Of a stretch of DNA of 39,542 nt, positions 1,717 through 38,838 are shown in pieces; the first letter of the stretch is position 1, and each line of letters starts with the position of its first letter. Location: the NCBI GenBank assembly GCA_030950365.1, contig JAUZRQ010000046.1, positions 1 through 39,542 of the forward strand, given 5' to 3'. A model generated the notes under the pieces. The model was not told where the DNA came from and ran no database searches. It saw only the letters and a program-made list of their open reading frames with translations. Origin of the DNA: Candidatus Zhuqueibacterota bacterium (lineage in GTDB: Bacteria; Zhuqueibacterota; Zhuqueibacteria; Zhuqueibacterales; Geothermadaptataceae). The position numbers and the translations under genes are program-made.

Positions 1717-2628
1717 ATGAAGCGGATTCGACCACCCCTGCCGTTTGCGCTTTTGGGACTGACGCTGGTTCTGGTTGTGAATTTCGTTGGATGTTCATTG
1801 ACCAAACACTTCCGTTCGTCGAAAAACGTGCTGCTGCGCACACCGCCATATTACATGGGCAAGCAGCGGAGGGTTGTGCCACCCATCGGCGTGTTCCCGG
1901 TGGAGCTCGACCGTCGATTGCAAAGGGACATGATGCGAGACGATGTTGCCAGGCGACTCCAGGAGTTTGTGGATAGGGTCAATCGTTATTTGGCCGCCAA
2001 AGCCGATGCCGATTTGATGGTGCTGCCGGCCATCGAGCGCCCCATTGAAGATGCGCCGGATGTGTATGTGGGCAACCCTCTGGGCGACGATTCGCCGGAT
2101 ACGACCGAATTCGAAGAGGAAATTAAAAATTACGGCTTCGCACCGGGTGAGCATGTGACCCTGGTTTACGCTCTGGCACCGGCCTTTGGCTGGAAACAAC
2201 GGTTGCGGCAGCTCGGCGATGAATATGGACTTCAGTATGTCGTGTTTATCACCCTTGGGATCAGTGAATATTTCCCAACGCAAATCGACTGGAAGGGGAA
2301 CAAGGCGATCTATCTGGGAACAGGGCATGCCATGCGGTTGAAATGGTTGACCTCGCTGGATGATCCCATCGAGGTGCTACATTTTACCGGCGCACTGATG
2401 GACACCACCGGTAAAATTCTGCGCGCCGGTGCCGAAGGATTTCATGCCAAACCCGGATCGTTTCTGGAGTCGGTGTTCGGCTTGCGCCGCACGCATGGCG
2501 AAGACGATATCGATGAAATTTTGCAGCTGCGACGTGAGGATTTACCTGGCAGACCGTTGGTGTGGAAGGTGGCCCTTCACAATCTAATAATCCAGCTAAC
2601 TGGAGGCCGTCGTCCCATCGTGCCGTAA
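1717..2628 (+). CDS. Putative lipoprotein of unknown function
   Basis: A 303-residue protein I do not recognise. The N-terminus is a lipoprotein signal: two basic residues, a hydrophobic core, then FVGC with Cys26 as the expected lipidated residue. The rest is soluble, with no other membrane segment, and has regular alpha/beta character; an acidic stretch occurs near residues 110-135. The sequence around TLGISEYFPTQ and YLGTGHAMRLKWLTS is distinctive but matches no family I can name. The start at 1717 is supported by AAGGAG about nine bases upstream; an earlier in-frame ATG at 1678 lacks this. Its last 33 bases overlap convergently with the 3' end of the hybrid kinase gene on the other strand. 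Confidence 0.7.
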   Translation: MKRIRPPLPFALLGLTLVLVVNFVGCSLTKHFRSSKNVLLRTPPYYMGKQRRVVPPIGVFPVELDRRLQRDMMRDDVARRLQEFVDRVNRYLAAKADADLMVLPAIERPIEDAPDVYVGNPLGDDSPDTTEFEEEIKNYGFAPGEHVTLVYALAPAFGWKQRLRQLGDEYGLQYVVFITLGISEYFPTQIDWKGNKAIYLGTGHAMRLKWLTSLDDPIEVLHFTGALMDTTGKILRAGAEGFHAKPGSFLESVFGLRRTHGEDDIDEILQLRREDLPGRPLVWKVALHNLIIQLTGGRRPIVP

Positions 2629-5600: not shown

Positions 5601-5823
5601 TGAAGACATACAGAAAATACAGACCCATCAAAGCGGTTATTCCCCAAATCAGTGGCTGGTTCGCATTCGGAATTAGCAACGCATGCCCCAGAAAATAGAA
5701 AAAATAGAAAATTCCCAGCACTCCTGATAGGGGCTTGAGGCTGTGATAGAGATAGCGGCGCAGTAGGACGCGTTTATTATGTGCGCTTAGTTCAGATATC
5801 ATGGTCTTTTTTCGTTTTGCCAC
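2596..5823 (-). CDS. Membrane PAS hybrid histidine kinase with receiver and Hpt domains
   Basis: A 1075-residue multidomain sensor kinase. Order: about six membrane segments (residues 33-180), coiled coil (190-232), PAS domain (233-345), HisKA with phospho-acceptor His376 in [13 protein letters not shown], HATPase_c with N box ENGIKF (492-497), DTGIGIP (531-537) and GMGLGLAL (561-568), a degenerate receiver (about 618-740; Asn674 stands where the phospho-Asp should be), a canonical receiver (780-895; acidic pair E785/D786, phospho-Asp829, Lys883), and an Hpt domain (about 925-1010; phospho-His969 in YAHEMKDVA). This is an ArcB/BarA-like phosphorelay layout. The first codon is GTG at 5823; an ATG at 5802 is a possible alternative and neither has a strong ribosome site. 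It lies 91 bp downstream of the propeller kinase gene on the same strand and is the only one of the three kinases with an Hpt. Confidence 0.9.
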
Positions 5824-5914
5824 ACTGGGTCATTCCAATTTAAATATCACAAAAACGATGCTGCCTCAAGTCTGTGCCATCCCTCGATTGGAAAATCCGG
5901 TTGCCGTCACCGGC

Positions 5915-8900: not shown

Positions 8901-9985
8901 CCGCCGCTATTGGTGCCGATCCACATCGTGTCGCCCCGGTCTTCGTAAATGGCCGTGATGTAGTTGTCCGGCAGACCGAGGTCGGTGGTGTACGATTCGA
9001 ACGCCTCCTGCGCCAGCTTGCTGACGCCGCCGGCGGTGCCAAACCACATGTTGCCTTCCCGATCCTGCAGCAGCGAAAACACCCGGTTATTTATCAACCC
9101 GTTTTCTAACCGAATGGGGGAAAAACGATGATTGCGGTAGCGATAGACCCCGTGGCCATTGGTGGCGATCCACAATGTGCCATCCATTGAGAAAATCAGC
9201 GAATAGGCTTCGGTTTTCGGAAGCCCCTGCTCTTCGGAAAAGTTGTCGATTTGATAGCGCCCACCCGAAATCGGGGTCAGCCGGGAAAGGCCTTCATCGG
9301 TTGAGACCCAGAGGTTTTTATCGGAATCCAGTGCCATATCAAAGACAATGTCGCTAACCAGCCCGTCCTCAGCAGAAATGTGCATGAGAGTATCATCCTG
9401 AAATTTGAACAGCCCGGCTCCGGTCACGCCGATCCACAAATTACTTGCTTGATCCTCGATGATGGTACGCACAAACGTGTCTTCCGGTCGGTCCACCAGC
9501 CGCAATACGGAAAAGGATTGACCATCGTAGATGATCACGCGCGCGCTGTCGCTGCCAAACAGCAATCGGCCCCGTTTGTCTTCGAAAATGCAAAAAACGC
9601 GGCGCACGTCGAAGTTCACGGCGGGGTTAAATTGCTTCAATTGGCCGGAGCCCGGGTACTCGTATTCAAAGTAGGCGATTCCGCCACCCAGCGTGCCCAG
9701 CCAGACCCGACCATGGCTATCTTCGAAAAGGCTATACACGATATGGCTGCCTTTCAGGCCAGAGGTGCGGTCAAAAATCTGGAAATAGACGCCATCATAG
9801 CGGGCCGCGCCGCCCGCCGTGCCGAACCAGATGAAGCCTTTCCGGTCCTGCAAAATGGCGTGCACCTGCGATTGCGGCAGACCGTCAGCCACCGTGTAGT
9901 TCTTGATTTGCAGTTTCTGGGCGTTCGCGCTATAGCCGAGCGTGATTAAAACAGCCAAAAGTTGTATAAAGGCGAATTTTTTCAT
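5915..9985 (-). CDS. Propeller-sensor hybrid histidine kinase (HTCS-like, no HTH)
   Basis: A 1356-residue hybrid kinase. A signal peptide (1-23) precedes 14 two-component-regulator propeller repeats (about 30-620; each of the form GL..N.V..I..D..G.LWIGT..GL.R.DG), which would make two seven-bladed propellers. A Y_Y_Y domain follows (about 655-732), then one membrane helix (about 738-758), coiled coil, HisKA with His805 in [10 protein letters not shown], HATPase_c, a first receiver that keeps the phospho-Asp (LILLDSS) and Lys (FIMKPIK) but has a weakened acidic pocket, and a canonical second receiver (LLVEDN, MDVQMP, SKPIQ). Bacteroides HTCS proteins share the sensor layout but end in an AraC-type HTH; this one ends after the receiver. 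The start at 9985 gives the signal peptide and sits five bases after the upstream stop, with a weak ribosome site, so translation is probably coupled to the upstream paralogue. Confidence 0.92.
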
Positions 9986-9990
9986 TTCGG

Positions 9991-12900
9991 TCAACGGTTT
10001 TTCAAAACCTTTTTCTTTAATATAGGCATCGAATTGGATTTCTTTATTTCCACTTCCGTGATGTGGATATCGCTGGCAATCGCCTGCAACAGCTTGTATA
10101 GCTCTTCTGTCTGAATGGGCTTTGAAATATATCCATCCATGCCGGCCTGCAAACATTTTTCGCGATCGCCCTTCATGGCGTGAGCGGTCATGGCGATGAT
10201 GGGGATGTGCTCGCCGGTTTTCTGCTCGCGCTCACGAATTTTTTGCGTGGCTTCAAATCCGTTCATGACCGGCATCTGCACATCCATGAAGACCAGATCG
10301 AAGCGGTGGCTCGCGAGCATGTCTAAGGCTTCCTTGCCGTTGTTGGCGATCTGAACCTGATGCCCGGCCTTTTCCAGCAAACGCATGGCGAGCTTTTGAT
10401 TGACCAGGTTGTCTTCAACCAGTAAAATTTCAAGCGCACGTGGACGGTCGCTTTGAGGAACGATATCCGCCTCGTCGGCCACGGCATCGGCTTCGACCAC
10501 CTCGGCATCCGAAAAAGTGTTGATAATCTGGTTCAGGAGCTCCGATTGCTTGATGGGTTTCATGATGAATCCGCACACATAACCGTCTTCTAATGACACT
10601 ATGTCCAGTCGTTTCCCAGCAGGAATTAAAAGCAGCTTATGCGAAGGCTTCCCCCACCGCTGCCGTTCGTATTCAGCCAGTTGCATCAGCAGATCCTGCA
10701 GGCCGGTATTCTGTCCCAGAGTGGAATCCAGAATGACCAGATCGTATTGCCGTTTGATGAGATCGCGGAGGTTTTCCCCTTTGGTGTTCGGTGCGAGATC
10801 CGGGTTAAATCCCCAGTTTTCCAACATATCGGCAAGGATATCCCGGCAGGTGGCGCTGGATTCGATAATAAGAATGTTCAAATCCGTCAATTTCGACGGG
10901 ATGCGAATGTCTTCATCCGGTTGTTTTTCCTGAACGGCAAATGGCAACCAGAATTGAAACACGCTGCCTTTTCCAACCTTGCTTTCCAACCAGATCTCGC
11001 CGCCCATCAATTCGATGAGTTTTTTGCTGATGGCCAGCCCGAGCCCCGTACCGCCAAAGCGCCGGGTGGTGGAGCCATCCGCCTGAGTGAAGGCGTCGAA
11101 GATTTTACGTTGCTTGCTTTTCGGGATACCGATTCCCGTATCCCTGACTTTGAAATACAACCGGGCATAGCTTTCCATGTCCGCCGGCAAGTATTCGGGG
11201 AGACCTTTCATTCGGACACTTTTGTGTGGACGCTGGCTCTGCCACAAATAGCATTCGATGGTGACTTCACCCTGTTGTGTAAATTTAATGGCATTGCCTA
11301 CCAAATTAATGATAATTTGCTTCAATCGATCGCGATCTCCAATTAGAGAATCTGGAACCTCTGAGGCAATAAAAAAGTTGAGTTCAAGGTCTTTTTCCTG
11401 GGCTCGGACGGCCAGCATTTTCAAGGTGTCGGCGACCATATCTCGCAAGTGGAACGGGGTTGCTTCCAGCTCGAATTTCCCGGCCTCGATTTTGGAAAAA
11501 TCCAGAATTTCATTGATGATGGATAACAGCGCTTCACCGGAGCTGGCAATGATGTTGGCATATTCCCGCTGTTCCGGGGTCAAATCGGTTTCCAACAGGA
11601 GCTTCGCCATGCCAATTACGCCGTTCATAGGCGTACGGATTTCATGGCTCATGTTGGCAAGAAACTGGCTTTTGGCCCGGTTTGCCGCCTCAGCCGCTTC
11701 CTTGGCCTGGTGCAATGCTTTCTCCGCCTGCAATCGTTCCAGCTCGGCCGAAGCTCGAATGGCAAAAATCTGCAGCATGGATTTGGCCATGTCTTCATTG
11801 GATAGCGGCTCACGGTGCAAAATGGCGATTAGTCCCAGAGGATTCATCTTTGAATCAAACAGAGGAGTGCCCAGATAACTCTCTACCCCCATTTGGGAAA
11901 GCATTTTATCTTCAGGAAAATGTTGACAAATGTTCTCAGGAAAATAGCAAGGCTCCCGGCCAACCACTTTTTCGCAAGGCGTACCCTTCAAATTGTAAAG
12001 GATATTGTCCTGGATTTTGCCGTGCGCCGCAATGGCCCGGGTTTGAATTTGTGATTCCGTGCCTTCCACCAGCTCACCGATGAGCACGTAGTCCACCTGC
12101 AGCATTTCCGCCAGGTATATCGCCAGTGATTTGAAAAACGCCTCGCCGGTGGCCGCAGAGACGCCCACGGCGATGTTGTGCAAAGTGCGCTCGGCTTGCT
12201 TCTGCAAAGTGATATCGCGTTGAATCGCGGCAAGACACATCGGTTCAGAGGTGTTGGGATTGCGCACCAGGAAGGCCGTTATCTGGACATCCAAAAGTTT
12301 CCCGCTCTTAAGTTGGCGTAGTTGCCCTTCGCCCGTCCATAAGCCGGTCTTTAATACTTGCGGTAAAATTTCTTTTTCTATGGTTTGTCGGAAAGGCTCC
12401 GGATGCAGGTCGTAAATGTGGTAATGAATGGGATCATCTTCCCTTAAGCCAATCAGGCGTTTGCCGGCTTTGTTGATGTATTGTACCTCTCCTTCCAGTG
12501 AGCCTATGGCGACGAATTCGTTGCTGTTTTCCACCAGTAACGCCAGCTTTTCCTGGTCTTCGCGGATGCGGTTGCGTTCTTGCAGCGCCCGTTCCAGTTC
12601 CCGTTTTTGTAGTTCAATTTCCGAAGTTCGTTTCGCTACCAGGCTTTCCAGCATTTGGTTTTGTTTGCGAATTTTTCGCACCCGATAGCGATACGAACCG
12701 AAAATCACCGATAGAATCAACAAGCCGCTTAGAAGTCCGAACCACCAGGTCATCCAGAAGGGGGGCAGAACGTTAAAGCTTGCCGTGGCCGATGCCGACC
12801 AGGGAGAATCGTACTTTCGCGCCTGCACCTCCAGGATGTAGTTCCCTGGGGGCAGGTGTGTGTAAATAATTTCGTAACCTTCGAGATTTCGCCAATTCCG

Positions 12901-14928
12901 ATCCAAGCCTTTCAGACGGTAGCGAATGGAAATATGGTTTGGATTGACGTATGAAAGCACTGAAAAATGGGCCAGAAGACGGTTTTGGGCATAATCCAGT
13001 TTGTGAAATTCCTCGGGAAACACCTTCTGGCCGCCAAGGGTCAATTGCCGGATTTTGACGATCGGCGGCTGGCCATGCGCAAAATCGTATTTAGGATTGT
13101 AATGGCTCAGCCCTTCAGCAGTGCCGAACCAGAGAGTGCCGTCGGCATCGGCATAAAAGCCGCCGGCATTGGTTTCATAGCCCACGAAGCCGTCTTTTTT
13201 ACCGTAATTGATGAACGTCTTGCCATTAAAGCGGTCCACGCCGCGGGCCGTGCCGATCCAGAGGTTGTTGTGATGATCGACGCCAAGAGAGTACACGGCA
13301 TCATTGTAAAGCCCGTCTTCTGTAGTAAATGTGCGGAACGTGCGGCCATTGAAACAAGTAACGCCACGCGAAGAATGATAGCCAAACCAGATGCGTCCTT
13401 TTTGGTCCTCGATCAGATAGTATGGCTCGTTGTCGGCCAGGCCATCCTGCACCGTGAAGGTTTGCCAGCGGGTGCCATTCCACACCGACAGGCCGTGATC
13501 TCCGGAAGCCCAGACTCTGCCTTCACGATCAACGAGAAGCCGGGCGTTGGAGAAGGTCTGCCCCGGAACCTTGATGTGAGTCAGAGCCCGGCCGTCCCAT
13601 TTGAACAGGCCCTTGCGATTGGTGGCAATCCAGATTTGGTGGCTACTGTCCTGGGCCAGGTGATTCACCCGACCGAGATTCTGGAACACCTGCGGCGCCT
13701 GAAACGACTGACCATCGTAAATATTGAGCCCACCGTAGGAGCCGATCCACAGATTGCCGTTGTGATCCAGCAATAGCGTCAAGATGGCGTTGTCCAACAA
13801 CCCATTTTTTGTCGTAAAATTCTGCCAGCGCTTGCCATCAAAACGAGCAAGGCCGGCATACGTTCCCACCCATAGATAGCCGCGACGGTCTCGAAGGATG
13901 GGGCGAACATTCTTGCTGGGCAATCCATCTTTTTCTGTATAATTCGTAAATGGGCGGCCGAGGAATTTTGCAATGCCACCAAATCCTCCGAACCAGATGA
14001 TCCCGTCTCTATCTTCAAGAATGGCTGCCACCGATTGAAAGGGGACCCCCTGAGAGGTTGTGATCATTTCGGTTCGTTGATTTTCTATGCGGGCGATGCC
14101 GTTCATAGTGCCAATCCATAAAGTCCCGTGGCGGTCGCTACAAAGGCGCGTGATTCGCTGATTGTTAAAAAATTTTTTGGATGGATATTCCTGAAGTCGT
14201 CTATCATTTTTATATGCAATGACTCTGTCTTCGAGGGCTACCCAAAGTCGCTGGTAAGGATCACGAGTCACCGAGGTAATCCATTTGCCTGCGATTTGCT
14301 CATCTTCAAACTTTTGGATGCCATGACTCCGTACTGTGTACAGGCCTCGCTCCGTCGCAATGTAGAGGGTTCGATTGCTATCTTGATAAATTTGGTTGAT
14401 CCTAAGACGTGGCATCCCACTTTCACGGCCGACAGGTTTGATCTTGTTTTGGTCCCAAACATACAATCCCGACCATGTGCCAATCCACAGCTTGCCGCGA
14501 TCATCAAATGCCAGAGCTGTCACGCGTTTATCATCAAGTGCTTCGGGCTTGATGGGGGTTGAAAACTGCTGCCCATCCCACCGACTAATGCCGCCGTTGG
14601 TGCCAATCCATATATTGCCAGAGAGGTCCTGGGTGACAATATTGATCCAATCGTTGGGAAGACCGTGCCGGATGCTGAAAACTTGAAATTGCTGACCATC
14701 GAATAAATTAAGCCCGGCTTGAGTGCCAATCCAAATATAGCCGTCGCGATCTTGAAACAACGTCTGGGCTACCAATTGCGAAAGGCCATCATCTCCAGTA
14801 TAGTTGTGGAAGTAGTATTGTTGCGCATACGTATTTGAAAGCCAACCCCCAATCCCGATTTGCAATATGACAAAGAAAATGGCACAACGATGAAAATATT
14901 CCAGGGTGCCACTATTATTCCATATCAT
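9991..14928 (-). CDS. Propeller-sensor hybrid histidine kinase with PAS and GAF domains
   Basis: A 1645-residue hybrid kinase and the first gene of the kinase run. An N-terminal hydrophobic export segment (about 14-35) precedes 14 Reg_prop propeller repeats (about 40-620), a Y_Y_Y domain (about 660-725), one membrane helix (about 730-752) and a coiled coil. A PAS domain (about 790-905) and a GAF domain (about 915-1070) follow, then HisKA ([13 protein letters not shown], His near 1090), HATPase_c ([31 protein letters not shown]), a divergent receiver ([14 protein letters not shown]) and a canonical receiver (LLVEDN, MDVQMP, SKPIQ). The HisKA-to-end half is closely similar to that of the next gene, while only this gene has the PAS-GAF insert. 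The ATG at 14928 is preceded by GGGGAAA. The 14-repeat sensor with Y_Y_Y suggests detection of an extracytoplasmic ligand such as a glycan, by analogy with HTCS; the ligand is unknown. Confidence 0.92.
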
Positions 14929-15339: not shown

Positions 15340-18300
15340 TTAGCTGCAGCCGCTGGTAGCGCCGCAGGTGACACACTTGAGACAGGTACCGTTGCGCACC
15401 ATGGTCAGGCTGCCGCACGAGTCGCAGATGTCGCCGGTGTAGCCCTGCAGTTTGGCTGTGGCGACCTGCGTCTGCAAGGACGGTCTGGTTTGCAGCTTGT
15501 CTTTGTACTGGCTGGTGCCGTTGGCCACCACCGGCGCCACTTTGGCCAGCGGTTTTTCTTCCGCGGCGGCCTCCGGCGTTTCGGGAGCTTCGGCCGCCGA
15601 TTCCGCTTGCGGTGGCTGTTCTGGCTGGTGCAGCTCGGTGCTGCGTAGGTCGGTCGCCTCGTCTATATGCGCCAGGTCGGTGCGGCCGAGGTACGTGATG
15701 GCCAGCTCGCGGAAGATGTAGTCGATAACCGACGTGGTCATTTTGATGTGGTCGTTGCCCACCACGATGCCGTTAGGCTCGAAACGGGTGAACACGAACG
15801 CATCGACGAATTCTTCTAGCGGCACGCCGTGCTGCAGGCCCAGCGAGACGGCTATGGCGAAGCAGTTCATCAGGCTGCGGAAGGCCGCGCCCTCGCGGTG
15901 CATGTCGATGAAAATCTCGCCGAGCTGGCCGTTCTCATACTCGCCGGTGCGCAGGTATACGCTGTGGCCGGCGATTTTGGCCTTTTGCGTGTAGCCATAG
16001 CGCCGGTTGGGCAGCCGCCGCCGTTTGGCAATGTAGCGGGTGATCACGCGCTCGGCCACCCGCACGGTCTTTTCCGCCGCTGGCATTTCGTCGTACTCTT
16101 TCAGCAGCTCATCCCAGTCCTCGCCGGCCACGGTGTTGAGCGGCTGGCTCAGCTTGGAGCCGTCGCGGTACAGCGCGTTGGCTTTGAGGCAGAGCTTCCA
16201 GGATTTCATGTAAGCTTCCTTGAAATCCTCGATGGTGGCCTCGTGCGGCAGGTTGATGGTTTTGGAAATGGCGCCAGAAATGAACGGTTGCGCCGCCGCC
16301 ATCATTTTGAGGTGGCCGTCCACCGAAATGTAGCGCGTGCCCTTGCGGCCGCATTTGTTGGCCGTATCGAACACCGGGTAGTGCTCGAGTTTCAGGTGCG
16401 GCGCGCCTTCGGTGGTCATGGTGCCGCAAATGTAATCGTTCGCTTCCTGAATCTGTTCGCGCGTGAAGCCCAGCGCCCGCAGCATGTCGAATTCGGGGTC
16501 ATTCAACTGCTCATCGGTGAACCCGAGCACCTGCTTGCAGAACTCGGTGCCGATGGTGTGCTGATTGAACGCAAACCGGATGTCGAACGCCGACGGCAGC
16601 ACCTCGTTGATCCTGTCGATGACCTCATCCGTAAAGCCCTTGAGCCGCAGCGTGTCCTCATTAATATATGGCGCTCCTTTCAACGTGCCGTGGCCTTTGG
16701 CATAGGCGATGATGTCGTCGATCTGCTCCTGGGTGTAGCCGAGCTTTTTCAGCGCCGGCGGGATCGATTGATTGATGATTTTGAAGTAGCCGCCACCGGC
16801 CAGTTTCTTGAACTTCACCAGCGCGAAATCCGGCTCGATGCCGGTAGTGTCGCAATCCATGACCAGGCCGATGGTACCCGTGGGCGCAATCACGGTGACC
16901 TGCGCGTTGCGGTAGCCGTATTTTTCACCCATGTCCAGCGCCCGGTCCGCGTCTTCGCGTGCCGCCTCGAGCAGGTCTTTGGGGCAGATGTCCGCATCGA
17001 TGCCCATGGGCTTGATGGTCAGGCCTTCATACTCCTCGTCCGGCGCATTATAGGCTGCCCGGCGGTGGTTGCGAATTACACGTAGCATGTGCCTGGCGTT
17101 GCGCTGATACGCCGGGAACGGGCCGAGCTCTTTGGCCATCTCCGCCGAGGTGGCATATGCGTGCATATGCATAATGCAGGTGATCGCTCCGGCCACAGCG
17201 CGCGCTTCCGGTGAATCGTACGGCAGGCCCATCACCATCACCAGAGTCCCCAGGTTGGCATAGCCGAGGCCCAGAGTACGGTAGCGGTACGACAGTTCGG
17301 CGATCTCCTTGCTCGGAAATTGCGCCATCAGCACGCTGATTTCCAGCACCATTGTCCACAGCCGCACGCCATAGCGGAAGTCATCGATTCGGAACGTGCC
17401 CGAATCCATGTCATAAAACCGCAGCAGGTTCAGCGAGGCCAGGTTGCAGGCGGTGTTATCGAGGAACATGTATTCGGAGCACGGGTTGGAGGCGCGGATT
17501 TCGCCGTCTTCCGGGCAGGTGTGCCACTCGTTGATGGTGGTGTGGTACTGCAATCCCGGATCGGCGCTGGACCATGCCGCATAGGCGATGTCGTCCCACA
17601 GCTCGCAGGCGCGCACCACTTTCATGGGCTTCGGGGGACGACCCTCCTGGGCCGCTTCCCGTTTCTCCACGCGGCCGTACAGCGGCCATTCGCGATCCTC
17701 GATGACCGCTTCCATGAACGCGTTGGTGACACGCACGCTGTTGTTGGAGTTTTGCCCGGACACGGTCAGATAGGCTTCGGAATTCCAGTCCGTGCTGTAG
17801 GTCGGAAACTCGATGCTGGTGAAGCCCATTTTGGCCAGGTGGATGATGCGCTCGATGTAGTTCATCGGCACCTGATCGCGGCGCGCCGCGGCGATGGCTT
17901 TGGTCAGAGCGCGGTTCTTTTTGGGACTGAACCGATCTTCGGAATCGGCCTTGCCGTTGGTCTCCGGCTGCGCGCCGTTTTCCGATGCGTTCGTTGTCAC
18001 CAGATCGACGACTGATGGGTCATGGCAGGCGCGGAAGATCTGGTTCAGGTGCTTTTCGATGATTTTCGAGCCGGCCACCAGCGAGGCCACTTTCTGCTCT
18101 TCGATCACTTTCCAGTTGATGTATTCGCGAATTTCCGGGTGGTCGATGTCGAGGGTGACCATTTTGGCCGCGCGGCGAGTGGTGCCGCCGCTTTTGATGG
18201 CCCCGGCCGCCCGGTCGCCGATTTTGAGGAAGCTCATCAGGCCAGAGGATTTGCCGCCGCCGCTGAGCCGCTCACCCTCGGCGCGGATCTCGGAAAAGTT

Positions 18301-20091
18301 GGTGCCGGTGCCGGAACCGTATTTAAACAGCCGCGCTTCCCGCAGCCACAAATCCATGATGCCGCCTTCGCCAACGAGGTCGTCTTTGATCGACTGGATG
18401 AAACAGTTGTGCACGACGATGTTGTTGGAAAGATAATGGTGGCTCTCGGTTTCGATGTCGTACACGTCCATCTTACCGAGGTACTCGATGGCGATGATCT
18501 CTTCCTCATGGATGTCGGGCAGGCTTTTGCCGGACACAATGTGGAACGACGCCTTCAGCGCCATTTGCTTGTCTTCGGAGACAAACCCGATGAGTTCTTC
18601 AAATCGCTTGCGGGCGCTTTCGTAGCCGATGATCACGTGATACGACGGCAAGCGGTTTTCGCGTGCGTCTTTGTTTTCGCTGATGCGGGCGTAAATGCCC
18701 ATGTTGGCCAGCAGGAACAGCACTTCCTGAGCGAGCTGGGCGGAAACGGTGGTCAGCACGATGTCGGCGCTGTTCATGCTCCCGCGTTCACGAATCCGCA
18801 CCGAGCCATCCGACTGGAACAGCGATTTCAGGTAGGCAACGGCGCGTTCCCGGCCGCCGTACAGAATCGGGCGTGGCACTTTCATGTCCACGCCGCGATC
18901 GAACAGATCGTAGGATTCCACAAACTCCCGCAGATCTTCGCCATACAGCCGGATACGCGTGATGTCCAGGTCCGGATTCTGGCTCGGAACCTTGCGCTCA
19001 TGGCGGTGCACGCCGGGGAACACGTTCTCAATGTGCTGCAGCAGCCACTGCTTTTCATCTTCGTTGATGGCCATGAATTCGACGGTCAGGCTGCGGTTGG
19101 TGCCTTCTTTGTACTGTCCCACAAAACCATCGCCCTGAAGCCAGCCTGCCAACGCCGCTTCGGATTCTTCGCGTTGAAGCGTGCCCACTTCCTGCAACCG
19201 GGTATTGCAGCGTTGGTGCAGCCGCATGCCCGGGCGCAATTCATCCACCCGCAGCCAGCGGGGCTCGGTCCGGCGTTCGCTGACCACGCGCACGAGGTGG
19301 TCGGCCGTGGCTTCAATGTAATTTTTATTCTTCAAAATCACCCGATAGACATCCTTTTTACCGTTATGCTTCACCGCCGTGACCGTCGTCAGGCCTTCGC
19401 TGTCATACACTTTCAGCCCCACCATGTTTTTCGTGACGATGTCGCCGATGGCAATGGGCCCGCGGGGGGTGTTCACCAGCGCATGATAGGGTTGGCACGC
19501 ATGGGGTTGCGGGTGGCTGTAGGCGTCCTCGCTTTTGCGCACTTCACCGGTGCGCGGATCCACATAATAATGGCCCTGCGGCGGCCCATCGATGCCATAG
19601 GCCCAGTGCAACCCGGTGTTGAACCACTGCGGCGAGTTGGGCGCGGCCATCTGATGCGCCAGCATATACATCATTTCGTCGTAAAACGCGCGCGCATCGT
19701 CGATGCTGTCGAAATAGCCGTATTTCCAGCCCCAGTAAGTCCACGTTCCGGCGAGGCGGTGAAACACCTGTCGGGCATCGTTTTCGTGCGTGTACCGCTC
19801 CTCGGCGGGAAGTTGCGCCAGCGCTTCCTCATCCGGTACCGAGCGCTGCAGCCATTTGGGGATGCCCTTTTCCGGCACCTTGCGCGTTTTCACCGGCACG
19901 CCGGCCTTGCGAAAATATTTCTGGGCAATGATATCCGTGGCCACCTGAGACCAGAACGAGGGCACCTTCACGTTGTGCATCTCGAAGATAACCGAACCAT
20001 CCGGGTTGCGGATGACGGAAGAGCGGGTGTCGAAATGGATGGAAGATAAAGGATCCTCACCGGCACGGGTGAAGCGGCGTTCGATTTTCAT
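15340..20091 (-). CDS. nrdJ: Adenosylcobalamin-dependent (class II) ribonucleotide reductase, intein-containing precursor
   Basis: A 1583-residue precursor; removing the intein leaves about 1219 residues. The enzyme reduces ribonucleotides to deoxyribonucleotides with a B12-derived radical. Visible signatures: the N-terminal [15 protein letters not shown], the first redox cysteine in HACFIQS (split by the intein), the radical-site motif [19 protein letters not shown], the phosphate-binding region [20 protein letters not shown], and a C-terminal Cys-rich tail ([16 protein letters not shown]) that resembles a zinc ribbon and probably includes the cysteines that re-reduce the active site. An Ala/Glu/Pro-rich linker precedes the tail. 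The ATG at 20091 is chosen over the longer open frame because GAGAGGAG lies six bases upstream. It is a single-gene unit with its own terminator, a long leader and NrdR-like boxes upstream. No cobalamin riboswitch was recognised. Confidence 0.95.
18406..19497 (-). mobile_element. In-frame LAGLIDADG intein inside nrdJ
   Basis: A 364-residue protein-splicing element covering precursor residues 199-562. The N-terminal splice residue is Cys in [19 protein letters not shown] (block A). Block B is present in [10 protein letters not shown]. Two LAGLIDADG-like motifs, [13 protein letters not shown] and [13 protein letters not shown], keep their acidic residues, so the homing endonuclease may be active. 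Block F is [16 protein letters not shown], and the element ends in IVVHN followed by the +1 Cys. Splicing would rejoin PHA to CFIQS, restoring the reductase active-site cysteine. All canonical splice residues (Cys1, block B His, penultimate His, terminal Asn, Cys+1) are present. Frame and codon use continue without a break. Confidence 0.93.
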
Positions 20092-20097
20092 GGCAGA

Positions 20098-20235
20098 CTC
20101 CTCTCGTTGTTGCACATCCTTGATTAAACGATGTTCCGGCGATTCATACAAGCAGGTATGCTGTGCAATCCCCTCGCGAGTGGACAAGGCCCTCCATGCC
20201 TGCGCGATGATGTGAAGCGAAGATGTTCCGAGGAG
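20098..20235 (-). promoter_or_regulatory. nrdJ leader with possible Shine-Dalgarno sequestering pair
   Basis: The nrdJ ribosome site GAGGAG (20103-20098) is perfectly complementary to CTCCTC (20235-20230) in the same leader, and the latter sits in TCACCTCCT, which matches the anti-Shine-Dalgarno end of 16S rRNA. Pairing would hide the ribosome site. This is a six-base match about 130 nt apart, so it may be chance; no known riboswitch class was recognised in this leader. Confidence 0.3.
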
Positions 20236-20400: not shown

Positions 20401-20774
20401 GTTTGATGCGTTTCCCGTACGCCTGCGCGAGATCGATAACACTCGCCAAATGCTTGAATTCCTGAAGGTTCGGGCAGGTTCCGTGGAACTCTTTCAGCCA
20501 CAAGGCGGGCTGTCATGAAACGAGCCGGGGATGCCATTTCGGCATTCCAGCGGCGACCCAATGAAAGCCGGAGTGACAGGCATTTGCCTGACCTGAGCCG
20601 TTATAGCGAGTCGAATGAATGCACTTCCTTTGCATACTATCTGCCTTCGAAGCATACATAATAAAATCGTGCAGCCCATTCCAGCGACCGGATCCGGTCA
20701 ATCTTGTTTATCCTGTCGAAAACCGTGTTTGGCCCGACTTCATGCCGTTTCTACCGTCTTTAACAAAACTCGGC
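20401..20774. other. Intergenic region between nrdJ operators and the editing-domain gene
   Basis: About 370 bp without a supported gene. Apart from the intergenic repeat copy at 20513-20579, nothing is recognised. Several short frames on both strands lack ribosome sites and family character. Confidence 0.5.
20513..20579. repeat. Intergenic repeat, copy A
   Basis: Shares blocks TCATG, GCCGGGGATG, GGCATT, CGGCGACC and TGAAAGCCGGAGTGACA, in the same order and orientation, with copy B at 21589-21664. Copy A lacks about ten bases in the middle. The two copies flank the editing-domain gene as direct repeats about 1.08 kb apart. It is probably a dispersed intergenic repeat family of this genome; copy number cannot be judged from this window. 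Confidence 0.65.
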
Positions 20775-20803
20775 TTGTTTTCGGGAAAAAATCGCGCTAT
20801 TTT
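20775..20803 (+). promoter_or_regulatory. Candidate sigma-70-type promoter for the editing-domain gene
   Basis: TTGTTT (20775-20780), a 17-base spacer and TATTTT (20798-20803) lie 43 bases before the ATG at 20847. Spacing is ideal and each box fits the consensus only partly. Confidence 0.4.
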
Positions 20804-20846
20804 AAACTGGATGGTAAAACGCTCACCAAATTCAGGACGATGCTCC

Positions 20847-21257
20847 ATGAAGATGCTGATGCTGCACGCACTGGACTACTGGCTGAAGCCGTATGAGAAG
20901 AATCTGGAAAGTGCGGAAAACGACGCCGCCAGCATTTCTTGTCGCAATGCCATCGTGGCCCTGATCCACGTGGAGGCGGTGGATGAAGATATGCCGCTCA
21001 ATGTGGTGAAAAAGGCCATCAAGAACATCAAGTGGCTGGCACGCAAAGTGGGCAGCGACGTGATCGTGCTGCACTCGTTTGCGCATCTGGCCACCACCCG
21101 CGCCGATGACAACGTCGCGCGGGACATTTTGAATCACATGGCCGAGCGCCTCGCCAGCGTGGGGTTCACGGTGCAAATCACACCGTTCGGCTATTTCAAC
21201 GAATTTCAAATCCATGTCGCCGGCCCCTCCTTGGCCAAGGTGTTTGTGGATATTTGA
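20847..21257 (+). CDS. Stand-alone archaeal-type threonyl-tRNA synthetase editing domain
   Basis: A 136-residue protein that resembles, along its whole length, the N-terminal editing domain of archaeal threonyl-tRNA synthetases (Pfam tRNA-Thr_ED; a D-aminoacyl-tRNA-deacylase-like fold). Matching features are the start MKMLMLHALDYW, the strand AIVALIHVEAVDE (35-47), VLHSFAHLA (74-82; archaeal proteins have YPFAHLS-type sequence here), a helix with ARDILNHM (91-98) and the C-terminal TPFGYFNEFQIHVAG (112-126). In archaea this domain removes serine mischarged onto tRNA-Thr. Here the catalytic and anticodon-binding synthetase parts are absent. The Lys that usually follows the PFGYY/PFGWY motif is Asn118, so activity or substrate could differ. 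The start at 20847 is supported by AGGA about nine bases upstream. It is a single-gene unit between nrdJ and bshC. Confidence 0.85.
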   Translation: MKMLMLHALDYWLKPYEKNLESAENDAASISCRNAIVALIHVEAVDEDMPLNVVKKAIKNIKWLARKVGSDVIVLHSFAHLATTRADDNVARDILNHMAERLASVGFTVQITPFGYFNEFQIHVAGPSLAKVFVDI

Positions 21258-32319: not shown

Positions 32320-33100
32320 ATCATCCTTATTTTTGTGGTGAAAAAGGGGATTATTTGACTCGCATAATATTGGCGAATCCATGCTTTCATAGCCACCCTG
32401 CGGGGTATGCAAACTCGATCAACAGGAGAAAGACGGTATCGGTGAGTACATCCCCAGAACGGAAGTTGCTCTTGAATTGGATAGCAGAGAAACGGTCCAG
32501 CCCTGCTGCAGCACCAATGGTTTCGCTCATTTGCGTAGGTGTGCTGGTTGGACTGCTATGGAAATGGCGCTATCAAAATAATTTTATAACAAGATAAAAA
32601 AAGTTGCAACAAATAGTCAAGCAGAATTTCTGACAACCTGTTTTGAACCAATATTTTAAAGAGATGTTTTGCCCTCCATATTCGCCTGCTCGCTGATTAT
32701 CCCTGGATTTTTGATACAATCGGTATCCTGGCTCATTGAATCCCATCTAGCGCAGAATGCTCTGCGAGATATAGGTGAAGGGAGGGAGGTTGTAGGAATG
32801 GTCTTTTGCCTCCTGTAGATTTTTTACCACGAACAGGGCTATCCTTCAGCACAGGATGCGACCATCGATCTCTTTTTCAGCCGTTCATATAAACGCCATC
32901 GGGGTTTTCAACCAAGAGAGAGCGCTGGATTCTATTCCAGAAAATCCCAAAACGTTTTGAGCAGCGATTATCAAAAAGAGAAAAATTCTGGAAATAGCTA
33001 TTGAATTTTTGCGAGAAAGTCATCAGATTCCATTTTGGTAGATTTATCCCTGTCTTTGTCATCAGCATGTGCCAACCAAAGGTCGAACAAGGAAATCGCT
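32320..33100. other. Intergenic region between WYL-like gene and helicase fusion
   Basis: About 780 bp, AT-rich, no supported gene. A 51-codon frame starting GTG at 32442 would encode a short peptide with one hydrophobic segment (VSLICVGVLVGLLW), but its nearest AGGAG is 13 bases away. The promoter of the helicase fusion must lie here. No transposase remnant was recognised. Confidence 0.5.
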
Positions 33101-36100
33101 GTGGTCAAAATTCTTATCAATGAGGCTTTCAAAAAATATCTGATCCACCAGCCGGCTGCTTTCCGCCGCAAGGTGCGCCAGAAATTTGAATATCTTGAAA
33201 TCGGCTACTGGGACGGAGGTCTGAAAGTCAAAAAAATCAAGGGGGTCAGCAGCACCAAGGCGGTGTTCGAGGCGCGGCTGGATCGTGCCAACCGCCTGCT
33301 GTTTACCCTGGGCACCGAATATGACGGAGACCAACCCGTTCTTCTGGTATTTGTCTGGGGAATTGTTGGCCATGATGACATCGCGGCCGGCAGCCGGCGC
33401 ATTCCTACCGATGTCCCCTTTTTGCAATTCAAGCCTCTGCAAGAACTAAGCCTGGATGAAGCCAACATCGAAGAGCTGAGCGACGAATACCGGACTCAGG
33501 AAGGCATCACGCAGAAAATTGCCGACGATTCGGCCACGCAAAAATGGCATTTTCTCGATAAAGCCAACTGGGATCGCATTGAAAAATACCAGCAGGACGA
33601 GTTTGAAATGGAGCTGTACCTGACGCCGGAGCAGCGGGCCATCCTCAACCGGCCGCTACCGGTGCTGGTCTCGGGTACAGCAGGCAGCGGCAAGACCACC
33701 CTCAGCGTGTATTATCTGTTGAAATTGCCGCTGGCCAAACATAAAAAGTTATTCATCACCTACAACAAATACCTGCGCAATGCCGCCTTCCGATTGTACC
33801 ACGGTCTTCTGAATAGCAGCGCCTTGAAAGACGAGTACGTTGCTCCGGATTTTTTTACCTTCAAAGGGTATTGTCTGGACATCATCGCCCATTTCAACCG
33901 GTCTTTTCCGCCGGAAAAAGAGGTCAACTTTGATCGCTTCTATCAGCTGGCGCTATCACACGCGCCGGCGCGCCGGTTCGACTTGCCGCTGATCTGGGAG
34001 GAAATCCGGTCCATCATCAAGGGAGCGTTACCGCAAATCAATCTCAAATTGCTCAAAACGCTTTTTCAGCAACTGGAAAAAGGCGTGCTCAACGGCAACG
34101 GAATTCAGGCATTGCAGCAGCAGTTTCTGGCCTTCGCCCGGCTGGAATCCATGCAGCGGGTGGCCGGCTTTGTGCAGAAATTCCTCAATACCGATATCGA
34201 GACGTTCAGCAAAAATCCACAATATTATATCGAAGAAAACCGGGATCGGGTGCTTTCGGTGCTGGATAAAACCATCAACTGGCTGGAAAAGCAGCGTGAA
34301 TTGACGCAGAAAAAATATCTGTCGTTTGCCGATTACGAAGCGCTGGGCCGGAAAAAAGCGCCGCATTTCCATCTCGATCGCAAGCCAATTTACCAGGTGT
34401 TCGAATGGTATCAGGATCGGCTGGATGCCGAGGGCCTGTGGGATGAGCTGGATTTGACGCGTGAGGTGATCAATCTGCTCAGCGAGCGCAATCCCGAGCC
34501 GTACCGCTATGACATCGTGGTGTGCGATGAGGTGCAGGACCTGACCGATGTGCAGCACGAGCTGCTGTTTTACATCGTGCGTGATCCGCGCAACCTGATT
34601 CTGAGCGGCGATACCAAGCAGATCATCAATCCGAGCGGTTTTCGCTGGGAGGAGCTGAAGCGTCATTTTTACGAACGCGATTTGCCGGTGCCGGAAATCG
34701 CCTTTCTCAGCCTGAATTTCCGCAGCTCCGGCAGCATCGTGGAGCTGTCCAACATTCTTCTGGAGCTGAAGGCCAAATGGCTGGGCGTGCGGGCCGAGGA
34801 GCTAAAGGAGGAGTGGAAATACAAGGGCCGGCCGCCGATCATTGTCAACCGCGTGAGTGAGGAACGCATGCTGGAAAGCATGCAAATCACCGGCGCGCGC
34901 AAAACCATTCTGGTGCGCAATCCGCACGAGAAAGAACGCCTGCAGAAACTCCTCGATACCGAGCTCGTTTTCACCATCAACGAGGCCAAAGGGCTGGAGT
35001 TCGACACGGTGCTGTTGTGGAAATTCGCCAGCGATCTGGCCACCCGCGACGTGTGGAAGGCCATTTTGCAGGCAGCCGATCTGGATGTGCACCAGGCCAA
35101 AATCCGGCACGAGGTCAATCTGTTGTATGTGGCCATTACCCGGGCGCAGAAAGATTTGCTGGTTTACGATGGCGAGGAGCCGTCGCTCATCTGGCAGAGC
35201 GAGCCGATCCGCGATCATGTGTATCTCACCGAGGATATCGGCTACGTGGATGAAGTGTGGAATGTGGTTTCGACGCCGGAAGAATGGCGCGAGCAGGGCG
35301 ACTATTTTTTTGAGCGCGAATATTACCGCGCGGCCATGGAGTGCTACAAAAACGCCGGCGACGAAGAAGCGCACCGCCGGGCGAAAGCGTTTGACGCGGA
35401 AAAACGACAGGATTGGAAGCTGGCGGCGCAAATGTTTGATGAAATCGGTGAGCGGGAAAAGGCGGCGACCTATTACGAACGGACCGGCAACTTCGCCCGG
35501 GCATTTGAGTTATGGCAAACGCTGGGCCGGAAAGAAGAAGCTCTTCGCTGCCGCATCGAGTTGCTGAAGAAAGACAAAAACTACGGTGAGCTGGCGAACA
35601 TTTACCTGCGGCAAAAATACTACCCGCAGGCGTGCGAGATGCTGGAGCGGGACCGCCAGTATCGGAAGGCTGCGGAGGTAGCGACGAAATTTCTCAAAAA
35701 CCCTGCAAAGGCCGCTGCTCTGTTTGAAAGAGCAGGTGACCATTCGCAGGCGGCCAGGCTGTACAAAAAATTGGGCGAGTGGGAAAAGGCCGCCACGCTT
35801 TATGAAAGAGCCGGAGAGACCGATGAAGCCATCAAATTGTGGAAAAAGCTCAAGCGCACCGACCGCCTGATGCGGCTGTATGAAAAAGTGCGGGATTACG
35901 AAGCGCTCTTGAGGATTTATGAGAAAAAGCGCGATCTGGATACGGCGGTGAAAATCCTGCGCAAAATGGGCGGTGAAACGGATTGGGTGGCGGAAGGCGA
36001 CCGGCTGTTCGCGGCGCGAAAATATTTTCCGGCCCTGGTGCGGTACACCGCAGCCGGACACGCCCCCGGCCGGGCCGAGTGCCTGATGAAAATGCGCATG

Positions 36101-37402
36101 TATGAGGACGCGGCCAAATACTTCGAACAGGCGGGACAGACGTTCCGGGCAGGGGAGGCGTATCAAAAGGCCAAAAAATTTAAACAGGCGTACCTTTGTT
36201 TTCTGGCATCCGAAGAGGAGGCCCAGGCAGACTACAGCCGCGCAAAACGATTGCGCTGGAAACTTCTCCGGGAAGATCTGTTCGCTATTACAGAATATTT
36301 AGTCGACAAGAAAGACTATGCCCGGGCGAAAAAACATTTTCAAGTCACCGGTGATCCCACGATGGCCGGTGTCATGACCATTCTTTTAGGGAATGAGCAG
36401 GAAGCCTACGAAATCTGGGCCAATGCTACCTTGCATGATCCGGGTTTTTATGAATATTTGGCCGGAGTTTGTATGGAATTTAATTTGATCGACCAGGGTG
36501 CGCATTTTGTGCTGCATTATCAGGACAAAGCAGAGCGGGCCGTAGTCGAAGCCGATTTATGGACTGATAGGATCGCCTGCCCCAATCTGCTGACCATGAT
36601 GGATGAATATTTCCGGCGGAAAGAGCGCAGTAAGGAAGAGTATCTGCTCTGGGCACGCTGTTTCGTGAACTACGGCTTGAATGAAATGCTCCACCTCAAG
36701 AAATTAACCTATTTCGTCAAAGCAGAAGCCTATGTTCACTATTTTCATCATTTTCTGGACCTGGTTTTGCGAAAGAGCGCGTACAGCAATTATAGAGAGA
36801 AGACTCCAGAAGACATTCTGGCAAAGCTAAAAAAGCAGTTCAATTCGGATCCCATTCTTACGGCCTTTCATGATTTCCTTGACGGATCGCTGGATCGATT
36901 CCATGCCTATCTGGATTCCACGGCTCCTGATGCTCGGAATTACTTCTTATTCCTGCTGGATGGCCGCTGTGAAAACGTCGACGATTTCGTTTCTTCATGG
37001 GATATCATGGTTATCAAGAAGTATTTCAGAGAAGTGAAAGCGAGTATTGAGAAGTGGTTGGCTCTGGCGCAATTGGCGGAGCGACACCAGATACGTCCGA
37101 TTTTTGCAGCGGAAATCTACTTGCAAGCCGGAGCATATGAAGATGCCGCCCGGTTATTTGCAAAAGAAGAGGAGTATTCCAAAGCGGCCGGAAGCCTGGA
37201 AAAGGCCGGCAAATATAAGCAGGCCATTGCCATGTACGAAAAATCCGGAAAGAACAAGCAGAAGATCGCCCGTTTATACGAAAAACTGGGCCAATGGCGG
37301 GAAGCGGCGGAAATCTGGAAAGCATTGGGCAAACCCAAACAATATCAGCGCTGCATGAAGCATTCTGACATGCCGAATTTGTTTGATGGGGAGGAGAGTT
37401 GA
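33101..37402 (+). CDS. RelE-like / UvrD-type SF1 helicase / TPR fusion protein
   Basis: A 1433-residue protein in three parts. Residues 1-100 resemble a RelE/ParE-type fold: a helical pair (FKKYLIHQPAAFRRKVRQK), then LKVKKIKG, AVFEARLDRANRLLFTL and a strand. Residues about 165-705 form a superfamily 1 (UvrD/Rep) helicase: Q-like LTPEQRAIL, Walker A GTAGSGKTT (192-200), DEVQD (476-480), GDTKQ (503-507), LNFRSSGSIVE, EAKGLEFD (628-635) and YVAITRAQ (676-683). Residues about 728-1433 form a long TPR/alpha-solenoid array, e.g. AARLYKKLGEWEKAATLYER, with a less regular middle part. I chose GTG 33101 because AAGGA lies seven bases upstream; the frame is open to 33035 but without an ATG. The gene stands alone. 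The helicase core appears intact. The role is unknown; nucleic-acid surveillance or defence is inference. Housekeeping repair cannot be excluded. Confidence 0.85.
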   Translation: MVKILINEAFKKYLIHQPAAFRRKVRQKFEYLEIGYWDGGLKVKKIKGVSSTKAVFEARLDRANRLLFTLGTEYDGDQPVLLVFVWGIVGHDDIAAGSRRIPTDVPFLQFKPLQELSLDEANIEELSDEYRTQEGITQKIADDSATQKWHFLDKANWDRIEKYQQDEFEMELYLTPEQRAILNRPLPVLVSGTAGSGKTTLSVYYLLKLPLAKHKKLFITYNKYLRNAAFRLYHGLLNSSALKDEYVAPDFFTFKGYCLDIIAHFNRSFPPEKEVNFDRFYQLALSHAPARRFDLPLIWEEIRSIIKGALPQINLKLLKTLFQQLEKGVLNGNGIQALQQQFLAFARLESMQRVAGFVQKFLNTDIETFSKNPQYYIEENRDRVLSVLDKTINWLEKQRELTQKKYLSFADYEALGRKKAPHFHLDRKPIYQVFEWYQDRLDAEGLWDELDLTREVINLLSERNPEPYRYDIVVCDEVQDLTDVQHELLFYIVRDPRNLILSGDTKQIINPSGFRWEELKRHFYERDLPVPEIAFLSLNFRSSGSIVELSNILLELKAKWLGVRAEELKEEWKYKGRPPIIVNRVSEERMLESMQITGARKTILVRNPHEKERLQKLLDTELVFTINEAKGLEFDTVLLWKFASDLATRDVWKAILQAADLDVHQAKIRHEVNLLYVAITRAQKDLLVYDGEEPSLIWQSEPIRDHVYLTEDIGYVDEVWNVVSTPEEWREQGDYFFEREYYRAAMECYKNAGDEEAHRRAKAFDAEKRQDWKLAAQMFDEIGEREKAATYYERTGNFARAFELWQTLGRKEEALRCRIELLKKDKNYGELANIYLRQKYYPQACEMLERDRQYRKAAEVATKFLKNPAKAAALFERAGDHSQAARLYKKLGEWEKAATLYERAGETDEAIKLWKKLKRTDRLMRLYEKVRDYEALLRIYEKKRDLDTAVKILRKMGGETDWVAEGDRLFAARKYFPALVRYTAAGHAPGRAECLMKMRMYEDAAKYFEQAGQTFRAGEAYQKAKKFKQAYLCFLASEEEAQADYSRAKRLRWKLLREDLFAITEYLVDKKDYARAKKHFQVTGDPTMAGVMTILLGNEQEAYEIWANATLHDPGFYEYLAGVCMEFNLIDQGAHFVLHYQDKAERAVVEADLWTDRIACPNLLTMMDEYFRRKERSKEEYLLWARCFVNYGLNEMLHLKKLTYFVKAEAYVHYFHHFLDLVLRKSAYSNYREKTPEDILAKLKKQFNSDPILTAFHDFLDGSLDRFHAYLDSTAPDARNYFLFLLDGRCENVDDFVSSWDIMVIKKYFREVKASIEKWLALAQLAERHQIRPIFAAEIYLQAGAYEDAARLFAKEEEYSKAAGSLEKAGKYKQAIAMYEKSGKNKQKIARLYEKLGQWREAAEIWKALGKPKQYQRCMKHSDMPNLFDGEES

Positions 37403-37615: not shown

Positions 37616-38479
37616 TTAAAAAATTGGAAAATTTGCAATGGCGCGCAACCCGGGCGCCTTGTTTTTGCTCAAATAGTCCACGATCGCGGAAAACTGAAAG
37701 CGTTTGACCAGGGAAAGGCCGATGGAGTGCGCCTGCGGATTATCGAAAACTATTCTATAGGCCAGGGAGGGAGATTTCGATTCCAGTTCCTCCGAACTCC
37801 GGATTATGTAATCCGAGCGCAGGCGACCCTGCAGAAACAGGGCGATCGAAAAAGTTTTTTTGAACCTTCGTGTAATCGAAAAATAATAGAGGCATTCGAT
37901 TCCCTCTTTGGTAATAGAAAATTCCTCTCGAACCCGGCGATGAAATCCAACACTCACGGAAGAAGTGATCCCCGTTTGTTGAAAATCTTTCTTGTACCGC
38001 AGGCTGATACGAAATTCACGGACTTTTTGTCGGACATATCGCATCAACAGGATTTTTGCAGCAGGCTCGAGTGAGAAATGATGGGTTTGATAACGCAGAC
38101 CGGTCCACATAAAATAAGAGAGGTCGGCGCCATCCCTGGCGAGGGCGGCATTCACGTTCAATGTAGCAACGGCTGCGAACCGGTTCGAAATGTGGAAGGA
38201 GTGGAAGTATCCTCCGCCGATGACGAAGAGCCTGGGTCGTATCACGTCCGGAAAATAGATCGCCCCTTCGGCGCTCACCACTTCATTGGGATAATCGCGC
38301 TGAAAAACTTGATAAAACAAGTACGCGCATTTCTCGACTCCCTGTTCGAAATTCACCGAGTGGATAAACGCTGGAACCGAGAAGGATGGCCCACCTTTTT
38401 GAGGCTGTGCCCGGGCAAGGGGGATGGACAACAGAAAAAAAACGATCAGCACCTTAAGTGGATTTTTTACCGATACCAT
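37616..38479 (-). CDS. Putative exported beta-rich protein
   Basis: A 287-residue protein I do not recognise. With the start at 38479 it opens with a signal peptide (MVSVKNPLKVLIVFFLLSIP, cleavage near ARAQ). The mature part has many alternating polar/hydrophobic strands (e.g. FRISLRYKKDF, TSSVSVGFHRRV, FSIALFLQGRL) and ends in a hydrophobic residue (FPIF), which would suit an outer-membrane beta-barrel, though this is weak. The open frame extends upstream to 38590, but this would bury the signal. A GGGGA about 11 bases before the chosen ATG is a plausible ribosome site. It is convergent with the helicase fusion gene, 213 bp away. Confidence 0.6.
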   Translation of the reverse strand: MVSVKNPLKVLIVFFLLSIPLARAQPQKGGPSFSVPAFIHSVNFEQGVEKCAYLFYQVFQRDYPNEVVSAEGAIYFPDVIRPRLFVIGGGYFHSFHISNRFAAVATLNVNAALARDGADLSYFMWTGLRYQTHHFSLEPAAKILLMRYVRQKVREFRISLRYKKDFQQTGITSSVSVGFHRRVREEFSITKEGIECLYYFSITRRFKKTFSIALFLQGRLRSDYIIRSSEELESKSPSLAYRIVFDNPQAHSIGLSLVKRFQFSAIVDYLSKNKAPGLRAIANFPIF

Positions 38480-38838
38480 TCTGAATTCATCCCCTTCCGG
38501 CAGATCAGCCATCCGACCCCGCTCCCATGTGCGGCCATGGCCTGACGCCGGTCTAATTTTTCCACGCGAAGCGATAAAAAAGCCGCGCATTCGAGTAATC
38601 AGTGTAACACTTTTTCATAACAGAAATTTAAAATTGGTTAATTTCTTTTGCTCGAAAGGCTCTCCCCCCGTGTCGGAGTCTTTTGAGGAAAATAAATTTG
38701 ACCTGTTAAAAAAGTGTCAGATGTTGCACTTCGAAATTGAATCCGCCTACTGAATAAACACGCTTAATACTCAGGCTCAAGTATGCTTCTGCTCACGCTT
38801 TCTACGCAAAATGGTGTCATATTGCACATTCTTCTTGG
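38480..38838. other. AT-rich intergenic region
   Basis: About 360 bp with no supported gene. It separates the putative beta-rich protein from the broken toxin-antitoxin pair; no repeat or terminator of note was seen. Confidence 0.45.

Follow-up and report, generated by a model that had tools for sequence, protein, structure and literature searches.

A predicted stand-alone RelE-UvrD helicase with a C-terminal alpha-solenoid from Candidatus Zhuqueibacterota, related to ArmD of ARMADA type II

In the literature that we found, RelE-UvrD fusions are described in one context only, namely as a subunit of ARMADA type II, a system of four genes. This subunit, ArmD, is a RelE-UvrD helicase that takes part in phage protection in Escherichia coli, and deletion of any ARMADA type II gene, or the Walker A substitution K266A in ArmD, abolished the protection (Bell et al. 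2025, PMC12458937). Here we analyzed a stretch of 39,542 nucleotides from Candidatus Zhuqueibacterota bacterium (contig JAUZRQ010000046.1 of assembly GCA_030950365.1; termed the window below), which is one entire contig of a 4.98 Mb genome in 136 contigs. Judged from its sequence, one gene of the window (33,101 to 37,402) encodes an apparently solo, solenoid-bearing new form of the known RelE-UvrD fusion, and no description of a solo form was found in the literature, which we covered in part. We regard the protein as a stand-alone accessory conflict protein of the RelE-UvrD helicase family that includes ArmD, with a probability of roughly 0.55, and predict that it likely acts in anti-phage immunity. 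A stand-alone and scattered relative of a helicase required in an anti-phage system is probably an undescribed immunity protein.

Other described proteins resemble parts of the window protein. CnuH of type II/III-A CoCoNuT, a defence system, combines an RNase-like domain of the RelE/colicin-D fold with a superfamily 1 (SF1) helicase, but the helicase is UPF1-like rather than UvrD-like, the domain order is different and the partners are McrBC (PMC11090510). Cami1 (CARF-RelE) of type III CRISPR is likewise an immune protein that unites a RelE-family effector and a sensor domain, whereas its sensor is a CARF domain and it has neither helicase nor solenoid (PMC11229360). YoeB, RelE, HigB and YafQ share the fold and the positions of R65 and H91 with the window domain but are free-standing toxins of 80-100 aa with cognate antitoxins, none of which was seen beside the window gene. 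GajB of Gabija is also a UvrD-family SF1 helicase; unlike the window protein, it has no RelE domain and is paired with GajA, and no ORF (open reading frame) for a GajA-like OLD nuclease adjoins the window gene. Two ankyrin-UvrD proteins, of Thermus aquaticus (pTA78) and Methylosinus OB3b (pOB3b2), have a RelE-like N-terminal domain, an SF1 core and C-terminal repeats in common with the window protein, whereas their repeats are of ankyrin type instead of an alpha-solenoid, their length is ~920-960 aa, and they carry H-x-Y where the window protein has H-D. A Cetobacterium protein has a similar N-terminal domain ahead of the helicase. The RelE-like N-terminus is unannotated in the records of these Thermus, Methylosinus and Cetobacterium plasmid UvrD proteins (L075 4239-7007, L076 4224-7097 and L077 4104-6965).

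ArmD and the window family are co-linear over residues 2-691 (hhalign probability 98.8, E 5e-17); in both, a RelE-like domain at the N-terminus precedes an SF1 helicase of the GajB/UvrD type. The first 110 residues of ArmD alone scored 26.4, whereas the highest score in 300 shuffles was 20.9 and no other part of ArmD exceeded 14.1, and the R59, R65, H91 and H-D positions of the RelE-like domain are kept. On the other hand, ArmD ends after the helicase, whereas the window protein adds a solenoid of ~700 aa. Their helicase cores are far apart, with a very long ArmD branch in the tree; such long branches make the deep part of the helicase tree, and with it the placement of ArmD, unreliable. Furthermore, ArmD is encoded together with ArmA-ArmB-ArmC, whereas the window gene is solo and no such genes lie around it. 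The N-terminal 1000 aa of ArmB found no match in the window genome at E<=1e-8. As the genome lacks an ArmB-like methylase at this threshold, the window gene is not an ARMADA system, and what it shares with ARMADA type II is the RelE-UvrD protein, with a long extra C-terminus. The first-pass annotation had suggested a defence role without reference to ArmD; that suggestion is strengthened by ArmD, which has the same RelE-UvrD arrangement and is experimentally required for phage protection. The ARMADA operon of E. coli ATCC 8739 is located at the Zorya-Druantia island (L074), and ArmD was not found at the one tRNA-Phe gene of this strain where it was looked for. Both a solo RelE-UvrD-solenoid member (L028) and, on a separate contig (C13), a gene for an ArmB-like ARMADA methylase of 57% identity were detected in a genome of another phylum (G345).

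Residues 1 to ~95 likely adopt the RelE/ParE fold. The tests are individually weak and none is decisive alone, but the modelled topology, the Foldseek matches, the profile scores against shuffles and the sub-threshold Pfam matches agree. The AlphaFold2 model of the domain, built with nine homologues (mean predicted local distance difference test score [pLDDT] of 73, residues 1-90 mostly >80), displays the order b-a-a-b-b-b-b (E2-6, H8-15, H19-33, E41-47, E52-59, E64-75 and E78-90), namely b1-a1-a2 and then an antiparallel sheet as in the RelE/ParE superfamily; a separate model of 1200 residues gave the identical element order at lower confidence. In the Foldseek search, YoeB/ParE 6n90 ranked first (probability 0.96, E 0.034) and the toxin-antitoxin complex 7vd7 second, while YafQ (4mmj/4mmg) appeared at ranks 21 and 38. 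Since the best E-value is 0.034, the support for RelE-family toxins as the nearest solved folds of the modelled domain is moderate. The domain profile scored 18.1 against a profile of 22 ParE_toxin proteins drawn from the sampled genomes (maximum 14.1 among 200 column-shuffled decoys), and a broader N-terminal profile of 15 members scored 22.5 against 22 ParE/RelE toxins (maximum 14.9 in 200 column shuffles). In two relatives on cyanobacterial plasmids, YoeB and HigB of Pfam matched below the cut-off (0.001-0.026). No clear named match was obtained in a fold search of BFVD. Two comparisons were set aside: a single-sequence hhalign of the domain against one YoeB was too weak to use, and a low-E phmmer match between the Euhalothece domain and the designed repeats of Tako8 was discarded, as its score sums seven repeats of ~3 bits each.

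The helicase core is of the SF1 UvrD type with motifs I, II, III, IV, V and VI intact, and every motif named in the first-pass annotation is present: GTAGSGKT at residue 192 (Walker A, 192-199), DEVQD at 476-480, GDTKQ at 503-507, NFR at 539, AKGLEF at 629 and YVAITRA at 676. The Pfam models of UvrD matched over their cut-offs (UvrD-helicase, 1.1e-16; UvrD_C, 2.5e-9), and the best match in PADLOC was GajB (3.2e-15). As for the C-terminal half, ~700 residues of repeats of the tetratricopeptide repeat (TPR) type had been proposed. The repeats are real, and TPR_7 (above cut-off), Clathrin and IF140/IFT172 TPR of Pfam match there, but their period is not the canonical 34 residues of TPR. In the AlphaFold2 model, short helices follow one another nearly without a gap between residue ~726 and residue 1200, where the model ends; each is ~10 residues long, and they repeat every 13 residues (26 per hairpin). 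The sequence autocorrelation rose above shuffles at lags 13 and 26 without a peak at 34. The solenoid was matched by Foldseek to IFT-A subunits, clathrin, the Ski complex TPR subunit and OGT. We therefore prefer 'alpha-solenoid' over 'TPR array' as the more exact term for this half, which is closer to the solenoids of IFT-A and clathrin. Altogether, the data support a single chain that joins a RelE-like toxin fold, an SF1 helicase and a long helical-repeat scaffold, as the first-pass annotation had read it. Among the relatives, the solenoid is 24-42% identical, while the RelE part and the helicase are 40-68% and 41-69% identical, respectively. That the solenoid is the least conserved of the three fits a changing recognition module, or merely weak constraint.

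Matches to the protein were found in 8 of the 388 sampled genomes but in none of the 14 nearest ones (same genus, family or order). Full-length relatives of 42-53% identity occur in four genomes of the same phylum (G031, G054, G064 and G057), and a fifth (G037) retains a fragment of 68% identity at a contig end. Further full-length relatives come from an Aminicenantes metagenome-assembled genome and from the genomes G159 and G345, which belong to other phyla. In one same-genus pair, residues 1-594 are under purifying selection (ratio of nonsynonymous to synonymous substitution rates about 0.02-0.2, by domain and method). This scattered distribution, the lack of conserved neighbours and the low score against the PcrA equivalog model (49 bits versus a cut-off of 911) argue against a common chromosomal repair helicase with added repeats, a reading that the UvrD/PcrA-type core would favour but that we already regard as very improbable. 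In G031, a second C-terminal piece of 97.1% identity is on another contig with different neighbours (L018 4759-5412, minus strand, versus L006 5104-5754), and represents either a strain mixture or a recent duplication.

Shorter relatives are carried by plasmids of Crinalium, Euhalothece and Paraclostridium, with ParA-type partition genes nearby. These plasmid copies are what would be expected if the protein served mobile elements, for instance in plasmid maintenance or inter-element competition, instead of host defence. We consider this improbable: the longest copies are on genome contigs, where no plasmid genes were seen, and the window contig carries genes for ribonucleotide reductase, bshA and two-component systems. 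No relative of the window protein was found in IMG/VR and phage records, and the Paraclostridium protein had weak matches in viral collections, in its helicase part only. A UvrD protein of a Vibrio plasmid (L071) was rejected as a relative: it is a short helicase that lacks the N-terminal domain and is encoded next to conjugation genes.

The contexts of the homologues are not conserved housekeeping ones, as the neighbours differ at every locus. Some of the relatives are near a PtuA-like ATPase (L004), NERD-UvrD and cas1 (L013), a YefM-YoeB-like pair (L016), a SocA/Panacea antitoxin and a WYL protein (L026), or genes for DUF4062, nucleotidyltransferases and an integrase (L028). The closeness of some relatives to such defence-type genes is suggestive of a conflict role. 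The window gene itself sits at a variable locus. In a congener (G001), the matching contig carries bshA, which lies upstream of the gene in the window, at 92% identity, without the four downstream window genes tested (FG-GAP protein, WYL-like ORF, RelE-UvrD gene and the ORF at 37616-38590); this comparison is limited to that one contig, where bshA was the only tested window gene found. Two neighbours proposed by the first-pass annotation fared differently. The WYL-like ORF does exist, with a weak similarity below the Pfam cut-off (13.5 versus 21.8 bits; PADLOC WYL, 2e-4), but nothing ties it to the system. The supposed toxin-antitoxin remnant was not found in the window: none of the small ORFs at about 31.8-33.0 kb has a match in a toxin-antitoxin family, no antitoxin family was found among the neighbouring window ORFs, and the ParE_toxin matches of this genome are on other contigs only.

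The residues conserved in the RelE-like domain are K44, K45, K53, E57, R59, R65, F68, H91 and D92. R59, R65 and H91 are essentially invariant, plasmid relatives and ArmD included, and K44, K45, K53 and E57 are nearly invariant within the closer family. In our own alignment, R59 and R65 correspond to K54/R61 of RelE and R59/R65 of YoeB, and H91 to H83 of YoeB. The catalytic residues are R61/R81/Y87 in RelE and E46/R65/H83/Y84 in YoeB (PMC2807027, PMC12620021). The putative RNase activity of the RelE-like domain is uncertain because K44 occupies the position of the general base E46 of YoeB. In addition, the clade of the window protein has D92 at the position of Y84 (Tyr to Asp). Both substitutions would suit a catalytically dead module that binds RNA or the ribosome in an RNA-, ribosome- or transcription-coupled surveillance helicase, Ski-like in that it remodels or removes nucleoprotein complexes, possibly in defence without RNA cleavage. 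The Foldseek matches of the solenoid, which include the TPR subunit of the Ski complex along with further large scaffolds of TPR type, and the action of ARMADA, which was judged direct and non-abortive (PMC12458937), are in agreement with this main rival. Nonetheless, the invariant and near-invariant residues argue against it, as does RelE itself, which lacks the E/H pair and relies on a basic cluster (PMC2807027), and we hold it to be unlikely, if the strongest of the alternatives.

The lysine at the general-base position also weighs against our preferred reading, the stand-alone conflict protein, as do several other points. Non-abortive ARMADA action argues against a simple suicide-RNase role. 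With the N-terminal domain alone, direct sequence searches of Pfam and PDB yielded no significant match and no RelE-family model above the cut-off, and its Foldseek E-values are weak (0.034). No neighbour is common to any two loci examined, and no recognised defence gene was found around the gene in the window. The closeness to defence-type genes is raw proximity with no background scoring, for which reason we take it as suggestive only. Finally, the sampled genomes are mostly fragmented assemblies, so that some absences may be missing contigs.

If the protein is indeed a stand-alone conflict protein, the following order of events can be proposed. The fast-evolving alpha-solenoid would recognise a partner or an invader-derived component. 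The UvrD motor, whose motifs are intact, would then engage foreign or abnormal nucleic acid and move on it at the expense of ATP. This engagement would place or license the RelE-like domain, whose fold is supported, to bind RNA, for instance invader transcripts or ribosome-bound mRNA, which would probably be cut. Such a protein would be a self-contained sensor, motor and effector without a separate antitoxin or operon partners. More tentatively, and with less than even odds in our judgement, the solo proteins may represent an unnamed, widespread single-gene immune class. In its members, an SF1 motor would gate a RelE-type RNase, and a C-terminal repeat scaffold of variable type (alpha-solenoid, TPR or ankyrin) would direct this RNase. 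ArmD would then be a scaffold-less form with partner genes, and the TPR/ankyrin-UvrD proteins of eukaryotes may descend from the class, among them TRANK1, of which the domain mix had reminded the first-pass annotation.

The features discussed above are listed in Table 1. The frame is open from TTG 33035 or GTG 33101 up to the stop ending at 37402. We regard GTG 33101 as the likely translation start, rather than the TTG further upstream, because the relatives begin at the equivalent position and AAGGA precedes it by 7 nt.

Table 1. Positions of the RelE-UvrD-alpha-solenoid gene, its predicted parts and compared features (window coordinates unless a locus is given).
Feature	Position	Strand	Remarks
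RelE-UvrD-alpha-solenoid gene	33101..37402	+	1433 aa, GTG start
Shine-Dalgarno-like AAGGA	33089..33093	+	7 nt before GTG 33101; read from sequence
Predicted RelE/ParE-fold N-terminal domain	33101..33400	+	residues 1-100; AlphaFold2, Foldseek, profile comparisons with controls, alignment
Linker/second small segment	33401..33610	+	residues 101-170; structure prediction of low confidence
SF1 UvrD-type helicase core	33611..35185	+	residues about 171-695; Pfam and motifs
Alpha-solenoid	35276..37399	+	residues ~726-1433; AlphaFold2 to residue 1200, periodicity, Pfam, Foldseek
WYL-like ORF, 132 aa	32014..32412	-	weak similarity; nothing ties the ORF to the system
ArmD, WP_000218176.1, 704 aa	L074:3558-5672	-	E. 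coli ATCC 8739

Elsewhere in the window, the class II ribonucleotide reductase gene (15340-20187, minus strand) is split by a LAGLIDADG-containing intein. A free-standing protein of 212 aa (20619-21257, plus strand) carries the 'archaea-specific' editing domain of threonyl-tRNA synthetase (Pfam tRNA-Thr_ED, 5.8e-38), here in a bacterial genome. Three consecutive genes for very large hybrid sensor kinases occupy 2596-14928 on the minus strand, one with PAS/HisKA/receiver/Hpt domains and two with Reg_prop/Y_Y_Y propellers.

Current libraries register RelE-UvrD proteins of this kind merely as generic UvrD/GajB matches. That the window protein shares its N-terminal domain with plasmid-borne ankyrin-UvrD proteins suggests that the family is broad and that its recognition scaffolds can be exchanged. 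Within such a family, the solo version would isolate the question of what the toxin fold does for the helicase and whether one gene suffices for defence.

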